Assembly: GCF_012927745.1 (NCBI RefSeq)
Contig: NZ_JABBKX010000012.1
Location: 62,001-126,000 of the forward strand
DNA length: 64,000 bases
Direction: 5' to 3'
Source: Neoroseomonas marina
GTDB lineage: Bacteria; Pseudomonadota; Alphaproteobacteria; Acetobacterales; Acetobacteraceae
Below the pieces are notes generated by a model. The model was not told the DNA's origin. It did not search any database and saw only the letters and a list, made by a program, of their open reading frames with translations. This document shows, in pieces, positions 13,974 to 41,997 of the stretch. The translations under genes and the position numbers were made by a program. The stretch's first letter is position 1, and each line of letters opens with the position of its first letter.

Positions 13974-14264
13974 CTACTGCCCCGCCCCACGCCCATCGCA
14001 ATCGTCCGCTCATCCATGCGCGGATCGTGCGTGAAGCTGCGCAGTTGTTCACGTACGGGATGACCTGCATGTACGGCCCCCCCGGCGTAGCGGGCCACCG
14101 CCTCGTGTCGGATCGCCTCGCGGCGTTCATCCTCGAGTGTCGCCGACCCGCGCCGAGGACAAGTGGCCGTTGTTGTGTGCGCCAGTCAGGCGCGACCGTC
14201 TGGGTGATGCGCGATCGTTCGGCCAGCAACCCCTTCGCCCCTTCGGCGTCGTAGACAGGCGGGC
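13974..14264 (-). pseudogene. Decayed 3' fragment of a second peptide-binding protein gene
   Basis: The 413 bases between 13866 and 14278 hold no intact gene but a degenerate copy of the end of the neighbouring binding-protein gene. On the minus strand, one frame reads THDPRMDERTIAMGVG, almost identical to the C-terminus of the intact protein. Just upstream it has DERREAIRHEAVARYA, matching DERREAIWHEAVALYA. Further up, LTGAHNNGH matches LTGANNNAR. Alignment then jumps twice (about 14200-14222 to 14715-14740, and 14230-14263 to 14808-14842), so it carries internal deletions. Frame changes occur near 14040-14060 and at the 3' end. Read as a tandem duplication in decay. Confidence 0.75.
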
Positions 14265-14278
14265 GGGTGTCGCGGGCG

Positions 14279-15850
14279 CTACTGCGCCCGCCGGACCCCC
14301 ATCGCGATGGTGCGTTCGTCCATGCGCGGATCGTGCGTCAGGCCGCGGCGCAGCGCCCAGGTGTTCACGTACTGGACCAGCTGAATCAGCGGCTCCTCCT
14401 CGGCATAGAGCGCGACGGCCTCGTGCCAGATCGCTTCCCGCCGTTCGTCGTCGAGCGTGGCCGAGCCGCGCGCGGCCAGTTCGTCGAATACGGGGCCCGA
14501 GAACCGCGCATTGTTGTTCGCCCCGGTCAGGCGCTGGCGGTTGTTGGTCGCGAGCGTGTTGATCAGGAAGTTCGAGCCTTCCCCGGTGCTGCTGCCCCAG
14601 GCGCCGATCTGCATCGCGTATTCGATGCGCGTGCGGCGCGGCACGAAGGCCGTCCAGGGCGCCGCATCGACCTGGGTGCGCACGCCGATGCGAGTCCACA
14701 TCTGCGCGACGGCCTGCGCCAGCCGCGAATCATTCGGCCAGCGGTCGTTGGGCGTGTTGAGCGTGATGCGGAAGCCCTCCGGATAGCCGGCTTCCGCCAG
14801 GAGGCGCTTCGCGCCCTCGGGGTCGTAGGCGCGCGGGCGCACATTCGCATTGTAGCCGAACGCACCTTCGGGCAGCCATTGCGCGGTGGCCGTCGCTGCG
14901 CCTTCCATCACGCGTTCGACCAGCGCCTCGCGGTTGATCGCCATGGACAGGGCGCGACGCACGCGCACGTCCTTGAACGGGTTCACCGGCAGCGGGTTGC
15001 CGGCATTGTCGGTCACCAGGGGCGTGCCGCCGTCCCGCGAGTAGTCGGGGGCCATGTAGACGGTGCGCAGCGAGGGGATCTCGGTGACCGTGATGCGCTG
15101 ATCGCGCCGCAGACGCGCGAGGTCCGAGGTCGGCACCTGTTCGATGATGTCGAGGTCGCCGGCCAGCAGGGCGGCGGTGCGCGCGCCGTCATTGGCGACG
15201 ATGCGGTAGTTCACGCGCGCCCAGGGTTCGGCGCCGCGGAAATACGCGTCGTTGCGCACCATCTCGATGCGGTCGCCGGAACGATAGGCGATGAGGCGAT
15301 AGGGCCCCGTGCCGACCGCCGCGCGGCCGCTGTTGAAGTCCTCCGTGCCGAGGCCTTCGGCGGCATGGCGCGCGACGATCGAGACCGAGGCGAGGTCCAG
15401 CGGCATCAGCGGATGCGGCGTGCGGGTATGCAGGCGCAGGGTGTGCGGATCCACCACCTCGACCCGTTCGATCGCGCGCAGGAAGCCCTGGAACCCGCCG
15501 GGGCTGTTCGGCACGTTCGGCACGCGGGAGAAGGTGAAGACGACGTCGTCGGCCGTGAAAGGCCGGCCGTCATGCCAGGTCACACCCTGCCGCAGCTTGA
15601 ACTCCCAGACGGTCTCCGAGACGACGCGCCAGGATTCCGCCAGCGAGGGATGCGGCCGCGCACGGCTGTCGCGTTCGACCAGGCGATCGAAGATGTGCAT
15701 GGTCAGCGCGTTGTTTGGCCCGACATTGTGGAAATGCGGGTCGATCGTCGTCACCGGTGCGGCGGAACCGAGCGTCAGCGTCTGCGCCCCGACGGCGGGC
15801 GCAACGAGGGCGATGGCGCCGGCAAGCGCGGCGCTGGCAATCCTGGACAT
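14279..15850 (-). CDS. ABC transporter peptide-type substrate-binding protein (SBP_bac_5)
   Basis: 523-residue periplasmic binding protein of the DppA/OppA family. A signal peptide (about 1-22, SAALAGAIALVAPAVGAQ) precedes the family opening TLGSAAPVTTIDPHFHNVGPNN. Other landmarks are LAESWRVVSETVWEFKLRQGVTWHDGRPFTADDVV and the later VRRALSMAINREALVERV. The frame is open upstream to 15940, but the ATG at 15850 begins the signal peptide. No permease or ATPase genes are adjacent. A decayed partial copy lies directly downstream. The ligand could be peptides, glutathione or other small solutes. Confidence 0.9.
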   Translation of the reverse strand: MSRIASAALAGAIALVAPAVGAQTLTLGSAAPVTTIDPHFHNVGPNNALTMHIFDRLVERDSRARPHPSLAESWRVVSETVWEFKLRQGVTWHDGRPFTADDVVFTFSRVPNVPNSPGGFQGFLRAIERVEVVDPHTLRLHTRTPHPLMPLDLASVSIVARHAAEGLGTEDFNSGRAAVGTGPYRLIAYRSGDRIEMVRNDAYFRGAEPWARVNYRIVANDGARTAALLAGDLDIIEQVPTSDLARLRRDQRITVTEIPSLRTVYMAPDYSRDGGTPLVTDNAGNPLPVNPFKDVRVRRALSMAINREALVERVMEGAATATAQWLPEGAFGYNANVRPRAYDPEGAKRLLAEAGYPEGFRITLNTPNDRWPNDSRLAQAVAQMWTRIGVRTQVDAAPWTAFVPRRTRIEYAMQIGAWGSSTGEGSNFLINTLATNNRQRLTGANNNARFSGPVFDELAARGSATLDDERREAIWHEAVALYAEEEPLIQLVQYVNTWALRRGLTHDPRMDERTIAMGVRRAQ

Positions 15851-15920
15851 TGGACAGTCTCCCGGGGTCTTTGCCCGGAAGGCTAGACCCTGCGCGGGAG
15901 GATACGCCACCCCTCGAACG

Positions 15921-15955
15921 GAAAAACGCCGCGGCCCCATCGGGACCGCGGCGTC
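15921..15955 (-). terminator. Rho-independent terminator of the sdh operon
   Basis: Reading the minus strand, 25 bases after the sdhB stop is a hairpin with a 9-bp GC-rich stem (ACGCCGCGG / CCGCGGCGT), one mismatch and three further pairs. It is followed immediately by TTTTT (+ strand 15922-15926). Strong intrinsic terminator geometry. Confidence 0.82.
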
Positions 15956-15979
15956 TCACGTCGTGGCTGGCGCGGCGCG

Positions 15980-16762
15980 TCAGCCCTGGCGTTCGACCAT
16001 CAGCTTCTTGATCTCGCCGATCGCCTGCGCCGGGTTCAGCCCCTTCGGGCAGGTCCGGGTACAGTTCATGATGGTGTGGCAGCGATAGAGCTTGAACGGA
16101 TCCTCGAGCGCGTCGAGACGCTCGCCGGTCGCTTCGTCGCGGCTGTCCGAGATCCAGCGATAGGCCTGCAGCAGCACCGCCGGCCCGAGGTAGCGGTCGC
16201 CGTTCCACCAGTAGGACGGGCAGGCCGTCGAGCAGCAGAAGCAGAGGATGCATTCCCAGAGGCCGTCGAGCTTCGCCCGTTCCTCCTTGGACTGCAGGCG
16301 CTCGCCATCGGGCGGCGGGGGCGTGTCGGCCTTCAGCCAGGGTTCGACCGAGCGCAGCTGCGCGTAGATCTGGGACAGGTCCGGCACCAGGTCCTTCACC
16401 ACCGGCATGTGCGGCAGCGGGGAGATGCGGACGTCGCCCTTCACCTCATCGATCGGCTTGAGGCAGGCGAGCGTGTTCAGCCCGTCGATGTTCATCGCGC
16501 AGGAGCCGCAGATGCCCTCGCGGCACGACCGGCGGAAGGTGAGGGTGGTGTCGACCTCGTTCTTGATCTTGATCAGCGCGTCCAGGACCATCGGGCCGCA
16601 CTGGTCGAGATCGATCTCGTAGGTGTCGGTGCGCGGGTTGGCGCCGCCATCCGGATCCCAGCGGTAGATCTTGAACGACTTGACGTTCTTCGAACCGGCA
16701 GGCGCCGAATAGGTACGGCCCTCGCCGACCGTGGAATTCTTCGGAAGCGTGAAGGTGGCCAT
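15980..16762 (-). CDS. sdhB: Succinate dehydrogenase iron-sulphur subunit
   Basis: 260-residue SdhB, the electron-transfer subunit of complex II. The N-terminal [2Fe-2S] domain shows [15 protein letters not shown] and a later CLKP; the C-terminal domain carries the [4Fe-4S] and [3Fe-4S] motifs [17 protein letters not shown] and [17 protein letters not shown]. All ligand cysteines are present. It is the last gene of sdhCDAB, 12 bases after sdhA, and is followed by a clear terminator. Confidence 0.97.
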
Positions 16763-30976: not shown

Positions 30977-31137
30977 GGCCGGCTTGGTTGCTCAGATGTA
31001 AGGACACTGCCACCGGGAGGAGAGGCCGCACCTGCGAAGGTCCTCTCGTCGCGGCGGCTTATTCCCGGCAGGCCGCCGTCAGACTGGCCCCCCTTCGGGG
31101 TGGGCTTATGGGCCGGCTGGAGCAATCCGGCCGGCCC
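30977..31137 (+). ncRNA. Candidate structured RNA, 6S-like architecture
   Basis: About 160 bases of non-coding sequence whose ends are complementary. The segment 30977-30993 (GGCCGGCTTGGTTGCTC) pairs with 31120-31136 over 17 positions, with a single mismatch and two G-U pairs. Inside are CTGCC...CGGGA with TCCCGGCAG, a GAGAGG/CCTCTC stem topped by ACCT-GCGA-AGGT (a GNRA loop), a 7-bp CGGCGGC/GCCGCCG stem, and CCCC-TTC-GGGG. A long closing stem, central open region and apical hairpin at this size is the layout of 6S RNA. Identity is inferred from shape only; another regulatory RNA is possible. Confidence 0.42.
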
Positions 31138-31675
31138 TATTTTCTTTCCGGGCCGGCTGAGCCTCGGCTTCCAGCAGAGACAGAAGCCCTTCCAGCAATT
31201 GCGTGGGGGAGGGCGGGCAGCCCGGGATCAGCAGGTCCACCGGCAGCACCGCGCCGACGCCGCCATGCACGGCATAGGATCCCTTGAAGACCCCGCCATC
31301 CACCGCGCAATCGCCTGCGGCGACGACCCAGCGGGGTTCGGGCGTGCAGGCCAGCGCGCGTTCCATCGCCTCGGCCATGTTGCGGCAGGCGGGACCGGTC
31401 ACCAGCAGCACGTCGGCATGCCTGGGCGAGGCAACGAAGCGCAGGCCGAATCGCTCGAGGTCGTAGGCGACGTTCTGCAGCGCGTTCACCTCGAGCTCGC
31501 AGCCGTTGCAGGATCCGCTGTCGACCTCCCGGATCGCGAGGCTGCGGCCGAGCCGCGTGCGGGCGGTGGCCGCGAGGCGTTCCGCCAGCGCCTGGACCGT
31601 GTCCTGCGGCACCGGGGGCGCCGGGTCGGTCAGCGGCTTGCCGATCAACGCGCGGGCGAGGCGTGGCCAGAGCAT
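31106..31675 (-). CDS. hyfI: Hydrogenase-4/formate hydrogenlyase small subunit-like protein (HyfI/NuoB fold)
   Basis: 189-residue NuoB/HyfI-type subunit that would hold the terminal [4Fe-4S] cluster. The ligands are in place: Cys56 and Cys59 (DSGSCNGCELE), Cys123 (AAGDCAVDG) and Cys153 (PGCPPSPTQ). A short amphipathic N-terminus precedes them. It lies on the same strand as the hyfB-C-E-F-G genes but is separated from hyfG by an oppositely oriented PH-domain gene. The last ten or so codons overlap the + strand terminator hairpin. The partner large subunit lacks Ni-Fe ligands, so hydrogen chemistry is unlikely. Confidence 0.88.
   Translation of the reverse strand: MLWPRLARALIGKPLTDPAPPVPQDTVQALAERLAATARTRLGRSLAIREVDSGSCNGCELEVNALQNVAYDLERFGLRFVASPRHADVLLVTGPACRNMAEAMERALACTPEPRWVVAAGDCAVDGGVFKGSYAVHGGVGAVLPVDLLIPGCPPSPTQLLEGLLSLLEAEAQPARKENRAGRIAPAGP
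31110..31147 (+). terminator. Rho-independent terminator, overlapping the 3' arm of the candidate RNA
   Basis: GGGCCGGCTGG (31110-31120) pairs with CCGGCCGGCCC (31127-31137) through 11 positions including one G-U, with the six-base loop AGCAAT. TATTTTCTT follows. It would end transcription from DUF1489 or the RNA. Its 3' arm is also the 3' half of the long closing stem, so the two folds exclude each other. Confidence 0.6.
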
Positions 31676-31740
31676 GTCGATATCGCCTATGGCAGGGGGC
31701 GGCCGACGCCCGGCAGTGCCGGGGCGGCGCGGAGGATGGC

Positions 31741-32259
31741 ATGGCCGAGCGGCGCTTCGCCTGCACCCTGGACGGGCTGGCGATCGCGATGACCCTGGTG
31801 TCCTGGGTTACGAGCCTGGGCGCGGCGGCCATCATACTCGTCGTTGTCGGGCTGACGCTGCCGCTCCTTGCGGCACCCTTCCTGCTCATCTTCGTCGGGG
31901 TGCCGGTCTGGACGATGCTCGTCGCCCCGCGCGGCTACCTGGTGGGGCCGACGGGGCTGACGGTCCTGCGCCAGGTCGGCGGGCGCGTGGTTCCTTTCGC
32001 CGCCATCGCCGGGGCGCGGCGCATTGCCAGGTCCGACCTCGGCTGGGTGTGGCGCACCTTCGGTTCGGGCGGGGCGCATGGCTATTTCGGGCGCTATCGT
32101 TCCAGGACGCTCGGCCCGCTCGTCCTCGAGGCGACGCGGCGGGACCGCTGGGTCCTGGTGCAGCGGCGTGACGGACAGCCGGACCTCGTGCTGAGCCCGG
32201 ACGACCCGGACGGCTTCCTGGCGGCGCTGGACGCCGCTCACAGGTCGACCCCGCTGTAG
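31741..32259 (+). CDS. Membrane protein with bacterial PH-like domain
   Basis: 172 residues: two transmembrane helices (about 13-35 and 37-58) in a hairpin, then a bacterial PH-like domain (about 65-165). The latter is recognised from YLVGPTGLTVLRQVGGRVVPF, RTFGSGGAHGYFGRYR and the ending LVLSPDDPDGFLAAL. GGAGG at 31731-31735 fixes the ATG at 31741. It sits on the opposite strand between hyfG and hyfI and overlaps the hyfG 3' end by 22 bases. It is not an expected subunit of hydrogenase-type complexes, so it is either an insertion or an accessory protein. Function unknown. Confidence 0.82.
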   Translation: MAERRFACTLDGLAIAMTLVSWVTSLGAAAIILVVVGLTLPLLAAPFLLIFVGVPVWTMLVAPRGYLVGPTGLTVLRQVGGRVVPFAAIAGARRIARSDLGWVWRTFGSGGAHGYFGRYRSRTLGPLVLEATRRDRWVLVQRRDGQPDLVLSPDDPDGFLAALDAAHRSTPL

Positions 32260-33749
32260 GAGCAGTTGAAGGATTTGTTGCACAGGGGGAAGTCGGCGAC
32301 GATGTTGCCCTCGATCGCGGCCTCCAGCAGCGGCCATTGCAGCCAGGAGGGATCGCGCAGGAAGACGCCGCGGATCAGCCCGCCATCGTCGAGGTGCAGC
32401 CAGGCCAGGCAGTCGCCGCGGAAGCCCTCGACGAGTGCGCAGCCCTCTCCCGCATGGGCGGGCAGGGCGACGAGGATCTCGCCTTCGGGCAGGGCGCCGA
32501 GCAGGCGGCGGACCATGGCGATGGAGGCGCGCAACTCGGCGATCCGGACGCGCACCCGGGCATCGACATCGCCGCCGGCCTCGACCACCACGGGCGGCGC
32601 GAGCAGGTCGTAGGGCGCGTAGCCGGGCGCCATGCGGGCATCGAAGCGCCGCCCGGATCCACGGCCGACGAAGCCGCCGGCGGCATAGGCCCTGGCGAAG
32701 TCCGGATTCAGGAAGCCGGTGCCGACCACCCGGTCCTGCAGGCTGGCATGGCTCTCGTAGATCCTGACCAGTGCCGGGATCTCGGCCTCGACGGCGGCGA
32801 GCACGGCGAGGATCGTCTCGGCCCCGCCCGGCGCGATGTCGGGGCCGACGCCCCCCGGCAGCACGCAATCCATCATCAGCCGGTGGCCGAAGGCGACCGC
32901 GCAGGCGCGCAGCACCTGTTCGCGCAGATAGCCGCAGCGGGCGTGGGGGAAGGCGAAGGCCGCGTCGTTGCAGACGAAGCCCCAGTCGTTGAGGTGGTTG
33001 TGGATGCGTTCGAGCTCGCCCATCACGGCGCGCAGTGCGGTGGCACGTTCCGACACCGTGACGCCCAGTGCGGCCTCGGCCGCGGCGGCGAAGGCCCAGG
33101 CATGGGCCACGGTGGAATCGCCCGACAGCCGTGCGGGGAAGACCGCCGCGGCGCGCGGCGACTTGCCGAGCATCAGCGACAGCGTGCCCTTGTGCTTGTA
33201 GCCGAGCCGTTCCTCGAGCCGGACGACGATCTCGCCCTGGATGTGGAAGCGGAAATGGCCGGGCTCGATGACGCCGGCATGGATGGGGCCGACCGGGATC
33301 TGGTGGATCCCCTCGCCCTCGACCGGAAGGAACGCGGGCTGCGGCGGCTCGGCGCCGCCAAGCGGCGCGGGCTGGCCGGACAGCGGTCCCAGCACCGGCC
33401 AGCGGCCGTGATCGAGCCAGGGGCGGAGATCGACCGCATCCTCCGCGGCCAGGCCCCAGAGGTCGCGGATCATGCGTTCGAAGCGGATGGCGCCGGGACG
33501 CGCGGGGGAAAGGGCGGCGTAGCGGCCGCCCTCCGCCGGGGCGGAGGCGAGCAGCACGCCGCCGGCGACGTCATCCAGGAAGGCGGCATGGACCAGGCCG
33601 GGTTCGGCCCAGAGGGCGAGCAATGCGAGGGTGGGTTCCGCCTGCAGCGCGGCGGGCAGGCGAGCCCAGGCGTCCGCGGACAGCAGGAAGCGCTCGAAGG
33701 GCCGTGCCCCCTGGGGGGCGCCGGCGCGGATCAGGGCGGTGGCGCTCAT
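32238..33749 (-). CDS. hyfG: Hydrogenase-4 large subunit-like protein without Ni-Fe ligands (HyfG/NuoCD fold)
   Basis: 503-residue fusion of a NuoC-like domain (about 1-130) and a NuoD/hydrogenase large-subunit domain (about 145-503). Family blocks are VGPIHAGVIEPGHFRF, LGYKHKGTLSLMLGK and ELERIHNHLNDWGFVCNDAAF. Where active [NiFe] enzymes have the first CxxC (as in RICGICS), this protein has ARLSGDSTVAHAW (206-217). The C-terminus reads CNKSFNCSYSGVDL rather than DPCxxC. The metal site is therefore absent. The ATG at 33749 overlaps the hyfF stop (ATGA). It most resembles Ehr-type or complex-I-like relatives that use another redox reaction. Confidence 0.88.
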   Translation of the reverse strand: MSATALIRAGAPQGARPFERFLLSADAWARLPAALQAEPTLALLALWAEPGLVHAAFLDDVAGGVLLASAPAEGGRYAALSPARPGAIRFERMIRDLWGLAAEDAVDLRPWLDHGRWPVLGPLSGQPAPLGGAEPPQPAFLPVEGEGIHQIPVGPIHAGVIEPGHFRFHIQGEIVVRLEERLGYKHKGTLSLMLGKSPRAAAVFPARLSGDSTVAHAWAFAAAAEAALGVTVSERATALRAVMGELERIHNHLNDWGFVCNDAAFAFPHARCGYLREQVLRACAVAFGHRLMMDCVLPGGVGPDIAPGGAETILAVLAAVEAEIPALVRIYESHASLQDRVVGTGFLNPDFARAYAAGGFVGRGSGRRFDARMAPGYAPYDLLAPPVVVEAGGDVDARVRVRIAELRASIAMVRRLLGALPEGEILVALPAHAGEGCALVEGFRGDCLAWLHLDDGGLIRGVFLRDPSWLQWPLLEAAIEGNIVADFPLCNKSFNCSYSGVDL

Positions 33750-35182
33750 CCGATGATCCTCGCGGCTTCGGCCAGCATGGCGCCGAGCGCGCCCGGCATG
33801 GCGAGGCCGAGCAGCGTCGCGACGGCGAGATGCAGCCAGAGCGGCGCGGCCGCCGCGGCTTCCCGCCAGCCGTCCAGCGCGCCGGCCGCGTCCGGCGTCG
33901 GCGGGCCGAAGCAGAGCGCCTGCAGGACGGTGATCAGCGCGGCGAGCGCCATCACCATGCCGACGACGAGCGCGATCCCGAGCCAGGGCGCCTCCGCCGC
34001 CGCGGCGGTGAGCAGGCGGAATTCGGAGACGAAGAGCAGGAAGGGCGGCATCCCCGCGATGCCCGCGATGGCGAAGGCGAGGCCCCAGCCCAGCGCCGGA
34101 TGCGTCGCGACCAGCCCCGAGATGTCGGCGATCTTCTGGCTGCCCTTGGCCTGCGCGGCGCGGCCGACCCCGAAGAACACGGCGCTCTTGATCACGGAAT
34201 GGCCGAGCAGGTGCAGCAGCCCGGCGAGGTTCGCCGCCGCGCCCCCGAGCCCGAAGGCGAAGGCGACGATGCCCATGTGCTCGATCGAGGACCAGCCGAA
34301 GAAGCGCCGCACATCCCGCCGCCGCCACAGCGAGACGGAGGCGAGCAACACCGAGGCGAGGCCGAGCGCGAGCAGGAAGGGTCCCGGCGCGATGGCGTCG
34401 GGATTGGCGCCGACGATCGACTTGGCCCGCAGCACCGCGAGCATCGCCGCGTTCAGCAGCAGGCCCGACAGCACCGCCGAGATCGGCACCGGCCCCTCGG
34501 CATGGGCGTCCGGCAGCCAGGAATGCAGTGGCACCAGCCCCGCCTTGGTGCCGTAGCCCAGCAGCAGGAAGGCGAAGGCGAGGTTGAGCGTATTCGGGTC
34601 GCACCGCGCGGCCACGCCCATCAGTGCCGCCCAGGACAGGCCGGTTTCCTCATGCAGCAGGGGCTGGGCCGCGAGGTAGAGGACGATGGTGCCGAACAGC
34701 GCCAGCGCGATGCCGACCCCGCAGAGGATGAAGAACTTCCACGCCGCCTCGAAGGCCGCGGGGGTGCGGTGGACACCGACCATGGAGACGGTCGCCAGCG
34801 TGGCGATCTCGATCGCCACCCACATCACGCCGAGGTTGTCGGCGAGCAGCGCAAGGGTCTGCGCCCCCATGAAGACCTGGTAGGCGGCGTGGTAGGCGCG
34901 GATGCGCCAGTGGTCGAAGCCCTCCTGGTCGAGCGTCGCCGCCGAGAAGACCGAGGTGGTCAGCCCGACGAAGGCCGAGACCAGGATGAAGGGCGTGTTC
35001 AGCGCGTCGGTATGCGTCCAGCCGTGCTGCGCGAAGGGCTGCAGGGCAAGGGCCACGGCCAGCAGGAAGAAGACCGCGCTGATCCCGACGTTGAGCATCG
35101 TCGCCGTGCGCAGCCGCGGCACGGCGGCCAGCGCGACGGCGCCGCCCCAGGCGAAGAAGACGATGGCCCATTGCAGGGGCAT
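33746..35182 (-). CDS. hyfF: Hydrogenase-4 membrane subunit-like proton channel (HyfF/NuoN-type)
   Basis: 478-residue antiporter-like subunit with about 14 helices. It carries the conserved complex-I features: Glu in MWVAIEIATLATV, Lys in AAWKFFILCGVG, Lys in GTKAGLVPLHSWLPDAHAEGP and the Lys/His block LLGHSVIKSAVFFGVG. It would translocate protons. The start ATG at 35182 overlaps the hyfE stop by one base; a GTG one codon earlier is possible. Part of the hyfBCEFG operon. Confidence 0.9.
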   Translation of the reverse strand: MPLQWAIVFFAWGGAVALAAVPRLRTATMLNVGISAVFFLLAVALALQPFAQHGWTHTDALNTPFILVSAFVGLTTSVFSAATLDQEGFDHWRIRAYHAAYQVFMGAQTLALLADNLGVMWVAIEIATLATVSMVGVHRTPAAFEAAWKFFILCGVGIALALFGTIVLYLAAQPLLHEETGLSWAALMGVAARCDPNTLNLAFAFLLLGYGTKAGLVPLHSWLPDAHAEGPVPISAVLSGLLLNAAMLAVLRAKSIVGANPDAIAPGPFLLALGLASVLLASVSLWRRRDVRRFFGWSSIEHMGIVAFAFGLGGAAANLAGLLHLLGHSVIKSAVFFGVGRAAQAKGSQKIADISGLVATHPALGWGLAFAIAGIAGMPPFLLFVSEFRLLTAAAAEAPWLGIALVVGMVMALAALITVLQALCFGPPTPDAAGALDGWREAAAAAPLWLHLAVATLLGLAMPGALGAMLAEAARIIG

Positions 35183-35850
35183 CACCGACCCTCCCCGCGA
35201 TGTTCCTCGAGGCTGCCGGTGTCCAGCGTGTCGAAGCGCTCGCGGATCTGGAAGGCGAAGACGCCGGCGACGACCGCGACCATCAGCACCAGCGCCGCCG
35301 TGGACAATTCCACCACCAGCGGCATGCCCGCGACGCCGATGGCGGCCAGGATCAATCCGTTCTCGAGCGACAGCAGCCCGATCACCTGGCTGATGGCGTT
35401 GCGCCGCGTGATCATCATCAGCATGCCGAGCAGCACGACGGACAACGCCAGGGCCACATCTTCCCGTGCCAGGGCGCGCGCACCCTCGGTCGCCGGCAGC
35501 ACCACCAGGATGGACAGGCCCACCAGCGCGACGCCTGCCGTCATCGACAGGCCGACGCCGAGCGCCGTTTCCACGCTGCGGTGCAGGTCGAGCCGCCGGA
35601 CAATGGCGTGCAGCGCCAGCGGGATCAGCACCCCCTTGGCGGCGAAGGCGAGCACGGCCGTGAGGTAGAGCCCCGGCGCCCCCTGCGCATGGGCCTGCCA
35701 GGCCGCGGCGAGGGCGAGCAGCGTGCCCTGGGTCGCGAAGGCGTTGATCACCGCCCCGATGCGCCGCTGGTAGAGCAGCACGAAGGACAGCAGCAGGACG
35801 CCGCCCCCGAGCAGATGCGCGACGTCGTAGCCGAGCTGACCGAAGCTCAT
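35182..35850 (-). CDS. hyfE: Hydrogenase-4 membrane subunit-like protein (HyfE/NuoK-type)
   Basis: 222-residue membrane protein with about six to seven helices. The second half (VVLLGMLMMITRRNAISQVIGLLSLENGLILAA) is the NuoK-like core with the membrane-embedded Glu (SLENG) conserved in HyfE and NuoK. The first half is HyfE-specific. The ATG at 35850 overlaps the hyfC stop (ATGA) and its own stop overlaps hyfF, so expression is tightly coupled. Confidence 0.88.
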   Translation of the reverse strand: MSFGQLGYDVAHLLGGGVLLLSFVLLYQRRIGAVINAFATQGTLLALAAAWQAHAQGAPGLYLTAVLAFAAKGVLIPLALHAIVRRLDLHRSVETALGVGLSMTAGVALVGLSILVVLPATEGARALAREDVALALSVVLLGMLMMITRRNAISQVIGLLSLENGLILAAIGVAGMPLVVELSTAALVLMVAVVAGVFAFQIRERFDTLDTGSLEEHRGEGR

Positions 35851-36806
35851 GTCAGCCCCGTCGAGACGAAGAGCAGCACCGCGCCCAGCAGCCCAAGCAG
35901 CAGTGCAGCGCCAAGGAATTCCGGCACGCGGAAGACACGCATCTTGGCGATGGCGCTTTCGAAGGCGGCCAGCGCCAGCGCCAGCGCGCCCATCTTCGCC
36001 ACCCAGGCCACGAGACCGAGGATCCACAGATGCGGCCCGGCGCCGGCCGGCGCCTGTCCCAGCGGCAGGAAGACCGCCGAAAGCAGCGCGAGCCACAGCG
36101 TCAGCCGCAGCATCGCCGCGAAGTCCCAGAGCGCGAGATGCCGGCCGGAGGCTTCGAGGATCATCGCCTCATGCACCATGGTCAGTTCGAGATGGGTGGC
36201 CGGGTTGTCGACCGGGATGCGGGCGTTCTCGGCGATCGCGACGGCGAGCAGCGCGACGAGGGCGAGGCCGAGCGAGACGCGCAGGCCAAGCCCCCCTTCG
36301 CGGAAGGCACCGGCGATGGCGTCCAGGTTCGTCGTGCCCGCGAGGATCGCGAGCGACAGCGCGGCGACGACGAGGGCCGGTTCGGCGAGTGCGGCGAAGG
36401 ACATCTCCCGCGCCGCGCCGAGCCCGCCGAAGGGCGTGCCGACATCCATCCCCGCCAGCGCCATCGCGACGCGCCCGAGCGCGAGCAGCCCCGCGACGAC
36501 GATGAGGTCCGAGAGCGGTGCGAAAGCCATGCCCCGCGCGAAGGAAGGCACCAGCGCCGCCGCCGCGACCGCCGCCCCGGCCGCGAGGTAGGGCGCGGCG
36601 CGCGAAACGGGCGAGGCGTTCTCCGCCAGCACCGGCGTCTTGCGCAGCAGCTTCAGCAGGTCCCGCAGCGGCTGCAGCGGATGGGCACCGCGCCGGCCCA
36701 TCATCCGCGCCTTGAGCCACCGCAGCACGCCGGTCAGGACGGGTGCCGCGGCGACGATCAGCACGATGTGCAGCGCCTGGGAGAGGATCGACCACACGAT
36801 CGCCAT
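35847..36806 (-). CDS. hyfC: Hydrogenase-4 membrane subunit-like protein (HyfC/NuoH-type)
   Basis: 319-residue NuoH/HyfC-type protein with eight helices, which links the peripheral arm to the membrane arm. Diagnostic blocks are PLQPLRDLLKLLRKTPV after helix 1, AENARIPVDNPATHLELTMVHEAMILEASG, and FESAIAKMRVFRVPEFLGAA near the C-terminus. The ATG at 36806 overlaps the hyfB stop by one base (TGATG). The charged residues of the quinone/coupling loop are kept even though the Ni-Fe site of the partner is lost. Confidence 0.92.
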   Translation of the reverse strand: MAIVWSILSQALHIVLIVAAAPVLTGVLRWLKARMMGRRGAHPLQPLRDLLKLLRKTPVLAENASPVSRAAPYLAAGAAVAAAALVPSFARGMAFAPLSDLIVVAGLLALGRVAMALAGMDVGTPFGGLGAAREMSFAALAEPALVVAALSLAILAGTTNLDAIAGAFREGGLGLRVSLGLALVALLAVAIAENARIPVDNPATHLELTMVHEAMILEASGRHLALWDFAAMLRLTLWLALLSAVFLPLGQAPAGAGPHLWILGLVAWVAKMGALALALAAFESAIAKMRVFRVPEFLGAALLLGLLGAVLLFVSTGLT

Positions 36807-38821
36807 CAACGCGCCTCCAGCCAGGCGAGCAGGGCGAGCATCAGCACCACCGCGCCGAAAGTCAGGCCGAGGCATTGCCGGATCGACAGGTCGCGCAGCC
36901 GTTCCGCCTGCGCCGCGGCCGCGTCCCGCCAGCGCGGCACCGGCCCCTCGAGCGCGACGAGGGCGGGGTCGTCGAAGCCGGAGTGGAGGATGGCGGGCCC
37001 GGTGGCACCGGGCGGCGGCATGGTCACGCCCTCCCGCGCCACCAGCAGGCTCGTGCCGAGCATCCGGCGCAGCGGCTGGCCGAAGCCCGATGCGGTCGGC
37101 TGCGTCGAGGGATCGCCGAAGGGCAGGTGGTGCGGCGCGGCGATGAAGCCGCAATCCCAGATCGGTCCGCGCGCCACGCCCGTCGGCGCGCGCCGGCGCA
37201 CGGCCCAGACCACGGCGCCGATCGCCGCTGCGAGCAGCAGCGCGACCAGCAGCGGCCAATAGCGGGCCCCGCCTTCCGCCGCGCCGATGGCGACGAAGCC
37301 CGCGCGCGGCGCCGCGGCGCGCGTCATGAGCCGCAGCGCCGGTTCCGCGAGGTCGAGCATGAGGCCGGGCAGCAGTCCGAACAGCACGGTCAGCCCGGCC
37401 GGCAGGATCAGCGCGGCCTGGACCAGCCGCCCGCCTTCCTCCGCCCCCGCCGCACGCGGCGTCCGCGGCCTGCCGAGGAAGACCAAGCCCCAGAAGCGGA
37501 CCATCGCCGCGGCCGCGAGGGCGGCGGCCAGCGCGGCCAGCGCCGTCGCCGCCGCGGCACCCATCTGGAAGGCGAGGTCGCCCACCCGCCAGGAGGCCAG
37601 CAGCGCCTGCAGCAGCAGCCATTCGGAGGCGAAGCCCGACAGCGGCGGTAGGGAGGCGGCCGCCGCCACGCCCGCCAGCGCCGCCCAGGCGGTGACCGGC
37701 ATGCGATGGATCAGCCCGCCCAGCCGGTCGATCCGCCGCGACAGCGCCCCATGCAGCACTTCCCCGGCGGCCAGGAACAGCAGGGTCTTGAAGACGGCAT
37801 GGTTCAGCGCGTGCAGCAGCGCCGCCCCGGCCGCGAGGGCCGCCAGCGCCGGCAGGTCCGCGCCGCGGAAGGCCAGTGCGAGCCCGAGGCCGATCGAGAT
37901 CAGCCCGACATTCTCGATGGTCGAACAGGCGAGGAGCGTCTTGATGTCGTCCTCGAGATTGGCGCGCAGCGCGCCGATCACCGCCGAGGCCGCGCCGAGT
38001 GCCACCAGCGGCGCGCCGAGCCAGAGCGGCTGCGCCGTCCCCATCAGGTCGAAGGCGAAACGGGCGAGGACATAGAGCGCGACCTTGGTCATTGCGCCCG
38101 ACATGAGCGCCGAGACATGGCTCGGCGCCGCCGGATGGGCGAGCGGCAGCCACACATGCAGCGGCGCGAGCCCTGCCTTCGATCCGGCCCCGGCGAGCAC
38201 CAGCGCCAGCACCAGCGCGGCACGCCATCCATCGGGCGGCGCTTCGCGCAGCGCGGCGAAGGCCACATCGCCGGCACCGCCGGCCAGCATGCCGAAGGCG
38301 AGGATCAGCGACAGCCCGCCGAAGCCCGCGAAGCCGAGATAGATGCGCGCGGCACGCCGGTTCGCCTCCTCCTCATGGTCGTGCGCGACGAGCACCCATG
38401 AGGCGAGGGACATCGCCTCGAAGCCGAGCAGGAGGGTGAAGCCGTCGGCAGCGAGCAGCGTGACCGCCATGCCGGCCAGGAAGAGCGGGTAGGGGACGAG
38501 GCGGCGCGGCGCTTCCGGCCCGTGCAGGCTGCCCAGGGCGAAGATCGAGGCGGCGGTTCCCGCCAGCCCCAGGATCAGCAGGAACCAGGCGGACAACGCA
38601 TCGATCGCGACCCGCGCCGGGCCCCAGGGCGGGCCGAACGGCAGGTCGGCGGCTTCCGGGCTGCCGAGCAGGCCGCCGATGGCCCCCATCGCGATCAGCA
38701 GGGACGCTGCCGCGCAACCACCGAACACGGCGCGACCGCCGGCCTCGTGGCGGGCCAGCACGGGCGCCGCCACCGCAAGCGCCAATAGGCTCCCGGTGGC
38801 CAGGAGCAGCAGGGTCAGCAT
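36806..38821 (-). CDS. hyfB: Hydrogenase-4 membrane subunit-like proton channel (HyfB/NuoL-type)
   Basis: About 671 residues with roughly 16 helices. NuoL/M core motifs are visible: LLLGFEAMSLASWVLVAHDHEEEANRRAARIY, GSKAGLAPLHVWLPLAHPAAPSHVSALMSGAMTKVALY and LNHAVFKTLLFLAAGEVLHG. It also has the HyfB-specific tail with WDCGF. It heads the operon. The ATG at 38821 starts at the first helix; the frame is open to 38884, and neither candidate has a clear ribosome site. This and HyfF would be the two ion pumps of the complex. Confidence 0.9.
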   Translation of the reverse strand: MLTLLLLATGSLLALAVAAPVLARHEAGGRAVFGGCAAASLLIAMGAIGGLLGSPEAADLPFGPPWGPARVAIDALSAWFLLILGLAGTAASIFALGSLHGPEAPRRLVPYPLFLAGMAVTLLAADGFTLLLGFEAMSLASWVLVAHDHEEEANRRAARIYLGFAGFGGLSLILAFGMLAGGAGDVAFAALREAPPDGWRAALVLALVLAGAGSKAGLAPLHVWLPLAHPAAPSHVSALMSGAMTKVALYVLARFAFDLMGTAQPLWLGAPLVALGAASAVIGALRANLEDDIKTLLACSTIENVGLISIGLGLALAFRGADLPALAALAAGAALLHALNHAVFKTLLFLAAGEVLHGALSRRIDRLGGLIHRMPVTAWAALAGVAAAASLPPLSGFASEWLLLQALLASWRVGDLAFQMGAAAATALAALAAALAAAAMVRFWGLVFLGRPRTPRAAGAEEGGRLVQAALILPAGLTVLFGLLPGLMLDLAEPALRLMTRAAAPRAGFVAIGAAEGGARYWPLLVALLLAAAIGAVVWAVRRRAPTGVARGPIWDCGFIAAPHHLPFGDPSTQPTASGFGQPLRRMLGTSLLVAREGVTMPPPGATGPAILHSGFDDPALVALEGPVPRWRDAAAAQAERLRDLSIRQCLGLTFGAVVLMLALLAWLEAR

Positions 38822-39097: not shown

Positions 39098-39646
39098 ATG
39101 AGGCCGTTGCTCGCCTTCAGCCGCGGCATGGACGCGGTCAGCGCCGCCTTCGGCAGGATCGCGGACTGGATGGTCCTCGCGGCCTGCGCGGTCAGCGCCG
39201 GGAATGCGGTGATCCGGTACGGCTTCTCGATGTCGTCCAACGCCTGGCTCGAGGTGCAGTGGTACCTCTTCGCCGGCGTGGTGATGCTGGGCGCGTCCTA
39301 CACGCTCGAGCGCAACGAGCATGTCCGCGTCGACCTCGTCTATGGCAGCGTCAGCGCGCGGGCACGGCTGTGGATCGACGTCTTCGGCATCATCTTCTTC
39401 CTGCTGCCGGGCATGGCGCTGCTGGCCTGGATGACCTGGCCCTTCTTCTGGGACGCCTGGGTGCGCGGGGAGGGCTCGCCCAATGCCGGCGGCCTCATCC
39501 GCTGGCCCGTCAAGATCGTGATGCCGCTCGGCTTCCTGCTCGTGACGCTGCAGGGCCTGTCCGAACTGGTGAAGCGCATCGCCGCGCTGAAGGGCACCGC
39601 GCCCGAGGCCGCGCATCTCGCCGAATACCACCGACCGGAGCAGTGA
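39098..39646 (+). CDS. dctQ: TRAP transporter small permease (DctQ)
   Basis: 182-residue four-helix membrane protein of the DctQ type. It has the typical NAVIRYGFSMSSNAWLEVQWYLFAGVVMLGASYTLERNEHVRVDLVYGSV block with conserved Glu/Trp. It pairs with DctM to form the membrane part of a TRAP uptake system for organic acids. The ATG at 39098 follows GGGGAACGGGGC. The dctM start is four bases after its stop. No periplasmic DctP gene is adjacent. Confidence 0.9.
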   Translation: MRPLLAFSRGMDAVSAAFGRIADWMVLAACAVSAGNAVIRYGFSMSSNAWLEVQWYLFAGVVMLGASYTLERNEHVRVDLVYGSVSARARLWIDVFGIIFFLLPGMALLAWMTWPFFWDAWVRGEGSPNAGGLIRWPVKIVMPLGFLLVTLQGLSELVKRIAALKGTAPEAAHLAEYHRPEQ

Positions 39647-39650
39647 GATC

Positions 39651-41063
39651 GTGCTGAGCCTGGAAATCATGCCGCCGCTGATGTTCGGCGGCCTGGTGGT
39701 CTTCCTGCTGATGGGCTTCCCGGTGGCGTTCTCGCTGTCCGCGGTCGGGCTGTTCTTCGGCTTCCTGTCGATCGAGATGGGCTTCTTCACCACCGCCTAT
39801 CTCGGCAACCTGCCGCTGCGGGTCTTCGGCATCCTGTCGAACGACCTGCTGCTGTCGATCCCGTTCTTCACGCTGATGGGCGCGATCCTCGAACGCTGCG
39901 GCCTGGCGGAGGACCTGCTCGAGGGCACCGGGCAGCTCTTCGGCAAGATCCCGGGCGGTCTCGCCTATGCGGTCATCCTGGTCGGCGCGGTGCTCGGCGC
40001 CATCACGGGCACGGTCGCGGCCTCGGTCATCGCCATGGGCATGATCTCGCTGCCCATCATGATGCGCTACGGCTATGACATGCGCATCGCGACGGGCGTG
40101 ATCGCCGCGTCCGGCACCATCACGCAGGTGATCCCGCCCTCCCTGGTGCTGATCGTCCTCGGCGACCAGCTGGGGAAGTCGGTCGGCGACATGTATGCCG
40201 GGGCGATCGGCCCGTCCTTCCTGCAGGTGTTGCTCTTCGTGCTGTTCATTGCGGGGGTGTCGATCTTCGCGCCGCACAAGGTGCCGCCCCTGCCGCCCGA
40301 GGCGCTGGCGCCGCGCGGATGGTCGCTCTGGTGGCGCGTGCTGAAGGGCATGGTGCCCTCGATCGTGCTGATCTTCCTCGTGCTCGGGACCATCTTCCTC
40401 GGCCTTGCGACACCCACGGAAGCGGGGGCCATGGGGGCGGTGGGCGCCGTGGCGCTCGCGGTGATGAACGGCCGGTATTCGTGGAAGCTGATGCGGGAGG
40501 CGATGGCGAACACGATGCGGATCACCTCCATGGTGATCTTCATCCTGATCGGCGCGACCGTGTTCAGCCTGGTATTCCAGGGCGTGGACGGCAGCCACTG
40601 GATCGAGCACCTGCTGTCGCACCTGCCGGGCGGTCAGACGGGCTTCCTCGTCTTCGTCAACGTCTTCGTGTTCTTCCTGGCCTTCTTCCTCGACTTCTTC
40701 GAGATCGCCTTCATCATCATCCCGTTGCTGGCGCCGGTGGCGGCCAAGCTCGACATCGACCTGGTGTGGTTCGGCGTCCTGCTCTGCATCAACATGCAGA
40801 CGTCCTTCATGCACCCGCCCTTCGGCTTCGCGCTGTTCTACCTGCGCGGCATCGCGCCCAAGGAAGTGCTGTCGAAGGACATCTACTGGGGCGCCATCCC
40901 CTGGGTGGGGCTGCAGCTGCTGCTGGTCGCGATCGTGATCCTGTGGCCCGAAAGCGTGACCTACTGGCTCGACAGGGGCACCGGCGTCGATCCCTCCACC
41001 GTGCGGATCGAGGTGCCGATGCCGGATACGAGCGAGGAGAACGAGGTGCCGGTCTTTAGGTAA
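39651..41063 (+). CDS. dctM: TRAP transporter large permease (DctM)
   Basis: 470-residue DctM-type protein with about 12-13 helices and the family motifs GGLAYAVILVGAVLGAITGTVAAS and GVIAASGTITQVIPPSLVLIV. The long size matches the DctM subgroup with an extended loop near ALAPRGWSLWWRVLKGM. It begins with GTG at 39651 and is co-transcribed with dctQ. The C-terminal tail (PSTVRIEVPMPDTSEENEVPVFR) is cytoplasmic or periplasmic and non-conserved. The binding protein must be encoded elsewhere. Confidence 0.92.
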   Translation: MLSLEIMPPLMFGGLVVFLLMGFPVAFSLSAVGLFFGFLSIEMGFFTTAYLGNLPLRVFGILSNDLLLSIPFFTLMGAILERCGLAEDLLEGTGQLFGKIPGGLAYAVILVGAVLGAITGTVAASVIAMGMISLPIMMRYGYDMRIATGVIAASGTITQVIPPSLVLIVLGDQLGKSVGDMYAGAIGPSFLQVLLFVLFIAGVSIFAPHKVPPLPPEALAPRGWSLWWRVLKGMVPSIVLIFLVLGTIFLGLATPTEAGAMGAVGAVALAVMNGRYSWKLMREAMANTMRITSMVIFILIGATVFSLVFQGVDGSHWIEHLLSHLPGGQTGFLVFVNVFVFFLAFFLDFFEIAFIIIPLLAPVAAKLDIDLVWFGVLLCINMQTSFMHPPFGFALFYLRGIAPKEVLSKDIYWGAIPWVGLQLLLVAIVILWPESVTYWLDRGTGVDPSTVRIEVPMPDTSEENEVPVFR

Positions 41064-41172: not shown

Positions 41173-41997
41173 CTACAGCATCGCGAGGCTGCGCTTCCTC
41201 GTCGGCGGCGCGAAGCCCCGGTCCAGCGTCGTGAGGTCCTCCGCGGTCAGCACGATGTCCCGCGCCGTGGCGTTCTGGCGCACATGGGCCGGATCGGAAG
41301 CCTTGGGGATGCTGACGACGTGCGGATGGCGCAGCGTCCAGGCGATGGCGACCTGCGCCGGCGTCACGCCGTGCCGCTGCGCGACCTCGGCCAGCGCCGC
41401 GTTGCGCAGCATCCGCCCGCCCTGGCCGACCGGGGAATAGGCCATCACCGGCATGCGGTGGCCGGCGCAGAAGGGCAGCAGGTCGAACTCCACGCCGCGA
41501 TGCTCGAGGCTGTAGAGCACTTGGTCCGTGGCGCAGTCCGGCAGCGCGGCGCCGAGCTCCTCGAGGTCGTCCACGTCGCAGTTGGACACGCCCCAGTGGC
41601 GGATCTTGCCCGCGGCCTTCAGCGCCTCGAAGGCCGCGACCGTCTCGGCCAGCGGATGCGATCCGCGCCAGTGCAGCAGATAGAGATCGATGGTCTCGAC
41701 CCGCAGGCGCTTGAGGCTGCGCTCGCAGGCGGCGACGGCGCCGCGGCGCGACGCGTTGTGGGGATAGACCTTGGAGACGAGGAAGACGCCGTCCCGGCGG
41801 CCGGCGATCGCCTCGCCCACCACCTCCTCGGCTCCGCCCTCGCCATACATCTCGGCGGTGTCGATCAGGGTCATGCCCAGGTCGAGGCCGAGGCGCAGGG
41901 CATCGACCTCGATCCGGCGCTGGGAGGCGAGTTCCCCCATGTGCCAGGTGCCTTGGCCAAGGGCCGGCACCGGGGTTCCGTCGGGCAGGGTCGGCAT
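41173..41997 (-). CDS. Aldo/keto reductase
   Basis: 274-residue AKR of the TIM-barrel family. The catalytic tetrad is present: Asp and Tyr in [12 protein letters not shown], Lys in LVSKVYP and His in YLLHWRG. NADP-binding residues lie in [15 protein letters not shown] near the C-terminus. It starts [22 protein letters not shown], as expected for the AKR5-like/YeaE-like group. Stand-alone gene, convergent with dctM. Substrate unknown. Confidence 0.92.

Follow-up and report, generated by a model that had tools for sequence, protein, structure and literature searches.

The window analysed here is a stretch of 64,000 nucleotides from Neoroseomonas marina (contig NZ_JABBKX010000012.1, positions 62,001 to 126,000), and the system in question is a six-gene operon, hyfB-C-E-F-G-I, on its minus strand at 31106-38821. 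By its sequence, the operon belongs to the described energy-converting hydrogenase-related (Ehr) family, with whose published members it was compared by description and not by alignment. The large subunit HyfG has lost its nickel-iron (Ni-Fe) site, and residue conservation indicates that this site is not decayed but is a different, highly conserved pocket. Gene calls, family matches and motif alignments bear out the first-pass annotation of the window, which had placed a Hyf-type complex without a Ni-Fe site at these positions. Its assignment to the Ehr type is likewise upheld, since no Ni-Fe ligands are present, the cluster cysteines and most key charged residues are kept, and the ligand-less large subunits form a tree group apart from HycE-type enzymes.

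According to the available parts of the papers, Ehr complexes of unknown function without CxxC or metal-binding residues are already in print (PMC12342949, PMC10284858, PMC6349859, PMC7304191). The novelty implied in the first-pass annotation thus falls away: the operon is an additional representative of a known type, and the Ehr type itself is not new. In the same excerpts, Ehr was reported from about half of the studied Nitrospirales genomes (PMC12342949), from hot-spring comammox Nitrospira (PMC10284858), from candidate phyla (PMC7304191), and from lineages sibling to Cyanobacteria, where antiporter-like subunits are described and a formate dehydrogenase partner was proposed for some (PMC6349859). 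The operon resembles these complexes in its similarity to group 4 hydrogenase subunits, its ligand-less large subunit, its small subunit with the proximal cluster cysteines, and its antiporter-like (Mrp/NuoLMN-like) subunits encoded together with a NuoH-like anchor; it differs in having no formate dehydrogenase, a partner proposed for some of the published complexes (PMC6349859). No experimentally shown Ehr function was found in the literature searched. Ehr is widespread and without a known function in the literature seen, and its lost metal site can now be read as a conserved pocket of another kind.

Loss of the metal site and conservation of the HyfG pocket

In alignment with Escherichia coli HycE and HyfG, the HycE motif RVCGIC (L1) is replaced by RLSGDS and DPCYSC (L2) by NCSYSG, so that both CxxC pairs, and with them all four Ni-Fe cysteines that mark a group 4 [NiFe] hydrogenase, are gone. 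HyfG also stops right after the L2 motif, whereas the two E. coli proteins run on with a C-terminal tail. The loss is general among 121 aligned homologues, comprising 40 loci from genomes of the host family, 80 from a named genome collection, and the window (119 are distinct, since the members of two pairs do not differ in their last 350 residues and apparently come from the same contig). None of the 121 has C..C at L1 or L2; instead, 95 have S..S at L1 and 110 have S..G at L2. A HycE search of 299 genomes of the phylum gave a similar picture. Among its best 30 loci, taken from a longer list that also includes complex I subunits, 7 were true HycE-type proteins with both motifs, while the other 23 all ended in NKSFNCSY[SA]G, and an S-G-D motif at L1 was detected by script in 21 of them.

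The predicted fold of HyfG is closest to that of HycE. The AlphaFold2 model (mean pLDDT 86.2, pTM 0.89) matched HycE first among Protein Data Bank structures in Foldseek (7z0s_E, TMq 0.85) and E. coli NuoCD next. By sequence, HycE was again the closest solved relative (7z0s_E, 6.7e-49), and MbsL of the Pyrococcus furiosus sulfane sulfur reductase MBS was a weak match (6u8y_L, 3.8e-9). In a midpoint-rooted tree of 43 rows, into which Ech, Mbh, CooH and published Ehr sequences were not included, 34 ligand-less large subunits lay on one side of a branch (support 100/99), opposite 7 HycE-type proteins and 2 NuoD.

Conservation of the pocket was counted in a core set of 86 sequences (84 distinct) chosen by holding (S/N)GDSTVA, so that conservation of the L1 residues in this set is by construction; the remaining 35 of the 121 stand outside it. 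A structural study of E. coli formate hydrogenlyase traces the route of protons in hydrogenase and complex I alike and describes a canopy Asp that appears strictly conserved (PMC9474812). This Asp, common to HycE and NuoD, is Asn495 in all 86 core sequences; no description of such a change was found in the literature, although no search was aimed at it. The canopy Arg is kept as Arg444, and Glu162 in the beta1-beta2 region, which corresponds to the hydrogenase-type proton-relay Glu (HycE E193), is also kept, each in 86/86, as are His252, Glu405 and Arg363. Other features are of the complex I type: Asp262 stands in the Asp column of NuoD in 85 of the 86 (Phe in E. coli HycE and HyfG), and Asn251 matches the NuoD of the same genome. 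The column of the quinone-ligand Tyr is Gly210, and the beta1-beta2 loop (IEPGHFR) resembles that of hydrogenases and has no counterpart of the second His in the complex I loop HPSAHG. Altogether, 26 positions combine at least 98% conservation in the core with a letter that differs from those of the two E. coli hydrogenases and two NuoD compared.

A second set, not chosen by the L1 motif, gave similar conservation. It consists of 53 rows (the window plus 52 of 75 loci filtered by length) found by scanning with the peptides PVHAG[IV]IE and FGHRLMMD, a choice that favours Glu162 and His289. In this set, G210, D211, N491, K492, N495, Y498 and G500 are invariant, and S209, S212, T213 and V214 are at least 90% conserved.

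Small subunit, membrane arm and electron entry

HyfI is predicted to hold one [4Fe-4S] cluster. As the first-pass annotation had stated, its four cluster cysteines are kept: Cys 56, 59, 123 and 153 align with cysteines of HycG and NuoB and are found in 103, 103, 107 and 106 of 108 sequences, respectively; the five sequences without Cys 56, like the five without Cys 59, have a gap at that position. Around CNGC the spacing is of the hydrogenase type and ungapped against HycG, so that four cluster ligands are expected, and there is no adjacent Cys pair as in NuoB (cluster N2).

The pump appears intact, most pump residues of HyfB, HyfF and HyfC being retained. In NuoM numbering, the letters at E144, K234, K265 and E407 are kept in HyfB of the window; HyfF keeps those at E144, K234 and E407 and has Asn at K265, as does E. 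coli HyfF. Among full-length rows (94 of 101 HyfB and 100 of 105 HyfF), E144 is kept in 86 HyfB and 100 HyfF, K234 in 85 and 99, and E407 in 84 and 97, while position K265 is Lys in 85 HyfB and Asn in 99 HyfF. The E-channel acids of HyfC at NuoH E157, D213, E220 and E228 are kept in the window and in 92-95 of 97 rows, with 10 divergent rows of 107 omitted. The ion pumping proposed in the first-pass annotation is an inference; redox-driven ion translocation by Ehr complexes is also suspected in the literature. The earlier description of a complete membrane arm is correct in that hyfB, C, E and F are all present; since a counterpart of HyfD of E. coli hydrogenase 4 is absent from the operon, the arm is complete only as a version with two antiporter-like subunits. 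Near the E-channel acids, HyfC also carries conserved His 205, 212 and 223 (91, 92 and 91 of the 97 rows), where E. coli HycD, HyfC and NuoH have other residues.

No electron-entry subunit was found in the operon. E. coli HyfA, HyfH and NuoI gave no entry among the non-overlapping tblastn matches (1e-5) in the 40 host-family loci and the window. A scan for CX2CX2CX3C over the 121 operon spans returned 12 six-frame segments (2, 2 and 1 in the E. coli hyf, hyc and nuo regions used as positive controls); among the called genes of the 121 loci only 5 held the motif, none of them in the operon, the nearest starting 3.7 kb from hyfG. A hidden ferredoxin subunit in the operon was ruled out by these two scans. 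The operon also holds no NADH module and no NuoI, NuoE, F and G not having been searched for genome-wide. The sole NuoI of the genome over the cut-off lies on another contig (C26), where the NuoD match of an ordinary complex I is about 5 kb away; of two weaker matches, one stands beside a 2-oxoacid:acceptor oxidoreductase and one inside a formate dehydrogenase. The first-pass annotation had reported no ferredoxin-like subunit, formate dehydrogenase or maturation gene nearby; this stands for the operon, and the maturation gene hypD is missing from the genome as well, but a formate dehydrogenase is encoded elsewhere (C12:289830-291881). One of 20 further loci (L201) has RnfB-like and RnfC-like genes by Pfam at 14156-16271, about 3 kb downstream, which might provide a ferredoxin link.

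Proposed reaction and its alternatives

On the most probable reading, for which belief and doubt are about evenly balanced, a core-type Ehr would couple redox chemistry to ion transport. In such a complex, the membrane arm HyfB/C/E/F would be joined to the HycE/NuoCD-like large and HycG/NuoB-like small subunits, and a soluble low-potential carrier (ferredoxin or similar) would dock on the uncovered HyfI, where HycF or NuoI would otherwise sit. Electrons would pass from the HyfI cluster to a small substrate bound by the Ser/Asp/Asn/Lys/Tyr pocket, and ion transport through HyfF and HyfB would follow from protonation via Glu162 and the HyfC-facing loops. Alternatively, the complex might run in reverse, powered by an ion gradient. 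More generally, and more tentatively, core Ehr may form a third catalytic type in the superfamily of complex I, next to the hydrogenases and the quinone reductases and distinct from MBS. It would be characterised by a metal-free pocket of S-G-D-S, N-K-S-x-N, the hydrogenase-type Glu and the canopy Asn, and by a single uncovered [4Fe-4S] cluster through which a small molecule not yet described and soluble low-potential electrons are interconverted. This reaction would be coupled to ion pumping and would take place in many Alphaproteobacteria as well as in bacteria of other groups.

Several points weigh against the redox-pump proposal, in which the donor, the substrate and the pumping are inferred. 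In the HyfG model, residues 137-186, with the beta1-beta2 region, have a pLDDT below 50. The pocket is looser in the 35 non-core sequences, with Glu162 in 26, the canopy Asn in 19 (Gly in 13) and Asp262 in 19. Among redox enzymes, only an aldo/keto reductase was repeatedly seen near the operon, in the host family: 16 of the 121 loci have it, 9 of them as the first same-strand gene upstream. To our knowledge, this enzyme family carries no iron-sulfur cluster, and it therefore does not fit a ferredoxin donor. It is possibly a partner or mere shared synteny, and it was not taken as a partner because, among the loci named from other families, only L139 was seen with the gene, downstream.

Moreover, enzymes using ferredoxin are not singled out by co-occurrence. 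In 200 genomes of the host family, sorted by author-set E-value thresholds into 120 with core Ehr, 41 with divergent Ehr and 39 with none (the borderline genomes G180 and G149 being placed in divergent and none, respectively), a 2-oxoacid:acceptor oxidoreductase was found in 80/120 core genomes against 6/39 without. Formate dehydrogenase was weakly associated (84/120 versus 20/39) and RuBisCO negatively (35/120 versus 19/39). With one genome per genus (56 core, 25 none), the counts were 36 versus 5, 39 versus 13, and 16 versus 14, respectively. However, a control, the broad CO-dehydrogenase-like family at E 1e-150, was as strongly associated (112/120 versus 19/39; 54 versus 13 by genus), and no partner is therefore named; the association of the 2-oxoacid:acceptor oxidoreductase probably reflects lineage and genome size.

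Of the three coupling ideas raised in the first-pass annotation, ferredoxin thus stays possible and not specifically supported, while quinone is weakened. As a carrier:quinone oxidoreductase, a stripped complex I, the HyfI cluster would reduce quinone in the HyfG/HyfC chamber and pumping would proceed as in complex I, which seems unlikely. The operon shares with complex I the homologous Q-module and arm; Asp262, nearly invariant in the core and Phe in the E. coli hydrogenases, Asn251 and the E-channel acids speak for such a reaction, as does PF00346 as the best Pfam match. However, the quinone His and Tyr ligands are gone, as Gly210 and the IEPGHFR loop indicate, and the canopy Asp is Asn, making quinone less likely; HyfI has CNGC in place of the adjacent Cys pair of NuoB, and the operon lacks NuoE/F/G/I. 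A precedent for a Ni-Fe-less member of the superfamily that uses its proximal cluster and is without the quinone His and Tyr is MBS, as described in the part of PMC7684303 available, and in an MBS-like reductase the proximal [4Fe-4S] cluster would reduce a sulfur compound, such as sulfane sulfur or polysulfide, in the metal-free chamber. The weak match to MbsL fits this idea. According to the same excerpt, the cluster of MBS has three cysteines owing to a shortened loop, the proton-relay Glu is missing, and MbsN holds two further clusters (PMC7684303), whereas HyfI is ungapped against HycG (MbsJ being compared by description only), the Glu is kept throughout the core, and MbsN has no counterpart in the operon. 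With a cluster loop of the same length as in HycG and with the Glu kept, MBS-like catalysis is considered very improbable.

The third idea, a non-redox pump in which pocket chemistry such as CO2 hydration would be coupled to ion flow and the cluster would be structural, is also improbable. CO2 hydration has been proposed for other complex I relatives, the operons examined have no electron-entry subunit, and the conserved pocket is polar. In one genome (L191:16302-16862), a hexapeptide-repeat gene (only Hexapep by Pfam), which we take to be gamma-carbonic-anhydrase-like, lies with a CitMHS/TrkA_C transporter directly upstream of hyfB. Against this reading, the hexapeptide gene was not matched near the other Ehr loci compared, RuBisCO is rarer with core Ehr, as counted above, and all four cluster cysteines are retained, although it is not obvious that a non-redox role would require them. 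The reading as a [NiFe] hydrogenase whose ligands have shifted was rejected and is close to refuted. HycE is the closest solved relative, and with E. coli hydrogenase 3/4 (7z0s) the complex shares the fused NuoC-NuoD-like large subunit, the CNGC/CNAC-type small subunit, the HycD-like anchor, the HyfB/HyfE/HyfF-like arm, the proton-relay Glu and the canopy Arg. Unlike these hydrogenases, the operon lacks the Ni-Fe cysteines (C..C in 0/121 at either motif), HyfA, HyfD, HyfH and the C-terminal tail, and the canopy Asp is Asn. The remaining L2 Cys was ruled out as a retained ligand, since its column holds the Pro of DPC in HycE and, in several relatives, Ala, Gly or Pro. HypD (PF01924) had no match in the genome (5.15 Mb, 99.7% complete), whereas in 14 control genomes the same search was positive in 4, E. 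coli among them; HypD was the only hyp gene searched for. Maturation genes and a place among Ni-Fe enzymes had been named beforehand as counter-evidence; HypD is absent, and HyfG does not group inside the HycE-type enzymes sampled in the tree.

For the proposed redox-driven pump, Glu162, Asp262, Asn491, Lys492, Asn495, Tyr498 and the HyfI cysteines offer residue-level targets, and named strains such as Rhizobium johnstonii 3841 and Rhodopseudomonas palustris carry the operon. If a substrate is found, the coupling of redox chemistry to pumping in complex I could be tested without quinone or H2.

Operon layout, neighbours and relatives

The features of the window are listed in Table 1. From hyfB to hyfG, neighbouring genes abut or overlap by a few bases. 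The six genes listed in the first-pass annotation are all present, and a plus-strand PH-domain gene between hyfG and hyfI had been overlooked. This gene is not thought to be part of the complex: it had no match in the 40 host-family loci and, among 39 genomes searched, matched only in its own, so that the operon was apparently split recently here. The hyfI gene downstream of it looks intact and is 92% identical to that of a sister locus (L036). In five other loci (L041, L044, L048, L080 and L082), a small same-strand gene stands between hyfG and hyfI, which is Glyoxalase_7 by Pfam in L041.

Table 1. Position and family evidence of the operon genes, the two HyfG motifs and nearby genes in the window (queries for hyfC, hyfE and hyfG were a few residues short at the start)
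Feature	Position	Strand	Evidence or remark
hyfB, antiporter-like membrane subunit	36806-38821 (in-frame start 38884 also possible)	-	PF00361 1.5e-45; NCBIfam hydrogenase 4 subunit B 2e-179, below cut-off
hyfC, NuoH/HycD-like membrane anchor with E-channel acids	35847-36806	-	PF00146 1.2e-33
hyfE, small membrane subunit, C-terminal part NuoK-like	35182-35850	-	PRK11492 9.7e-20 and PF00420 6.8e-5, each below cut-off
hyfF, second antiporter-like membrane subunit	33746-35185	-	PF00361 3.1e-47; hydrogenase 4 subunit F 5.9e-164, over cut-off
hyfG, fused NuoC-NuoD/HycE-like large subunit without Ni-Fe ligands	32238-33749	-	PF00346 6.5e-31; PF00374 2.7e-6
L1-equivalent motif RLSGDSTVAHA, hyfG residues 207-217	33099-33131	-	aligned to HycE RVCGICGFAHS; coordinates computed from start 33749 and confirmed in the sequence
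L2-equivalent motif SFNCSYSGVDL, hyfG residues 493-503, extreme C-terminus	32241-32273	-	aligned to HycE SLDPCYSCTDR
PH-domain (bPH_5) gene between hyfG and hyfI, overlapping the hyfG 3' end	31741-32259	+	PF10882 9.9e-10
hyfI, NuoB/HycG-like small subunit, four cluster cysteines	31106-31675	-	PF01058 5.8e-32
DctQ-DctM pair	39098-41063		diverges from hyfB
aldo/keto reductase	41173-41997		beyond DctQM (TRAP genes); Pfam run on the L058 member

All six genes are called in 84 of the 121 homologous loci, several others being cut by contig ends, a conservation of the operon far beyond chance. The order B-C-E-F-G-I recurs in loci named Acetobacteraceae, Bradyrhizobium, Rhizobium, Mesorhizobium, Azospirillum, Rhodopseudomonas and others. 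The closest named relative found is a Roseomonas sp. with 83% HyfG identity, in a collection that may omit very near records, which makes a host of the Acetobacteraceae type likely.

Pfam searches of 30 proteins, mostly neighbours, returned housekeeping genes, transporters, regulators and unrelated enzymes. Besides the aldo/keto reductase, the recurrent neighbours were DctM (21 of the 121 loci), DctQ (17) and DUF1489 (14). In close relatives, the DctQM transporter likewise lies upstream and faces away from the operon; in the window, no DctP stands between the pair and hyfB, a place where L041 has one. Of the 94 hyfB with a called upstream gene, 30 are immediately preceded by a short helix-turn-helix (HTH) gene of the same strand, which overlaps hyfB by 4 bases in 13 of the 30; an annotated case is RL_RS31260 in Rhizobium johnstonii 3841, after which come the six operon genes to RL_RS31230. 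No match to this gene was found in the window.

Divergent Ehr-like operons were also seen in the host family (L056-L064, L066 and L068), eight of which were placed in the tree and fall within the core Acetobacteraceae rows, mostly on long branches. In L058 the proteins in the places of HyfE and HyfF have no Pfam match, and in L056 the one in the place of HyfF has a borderline match; these operons appear to represent a lineage that is decaying or has been put to a new use. Four loci from a different family of the phylum (L204, L205, L206 and L209) have two tandem hyfB-like genes with an HTH and cupin protein in front, the latter assigned by Pfam in L205 only.

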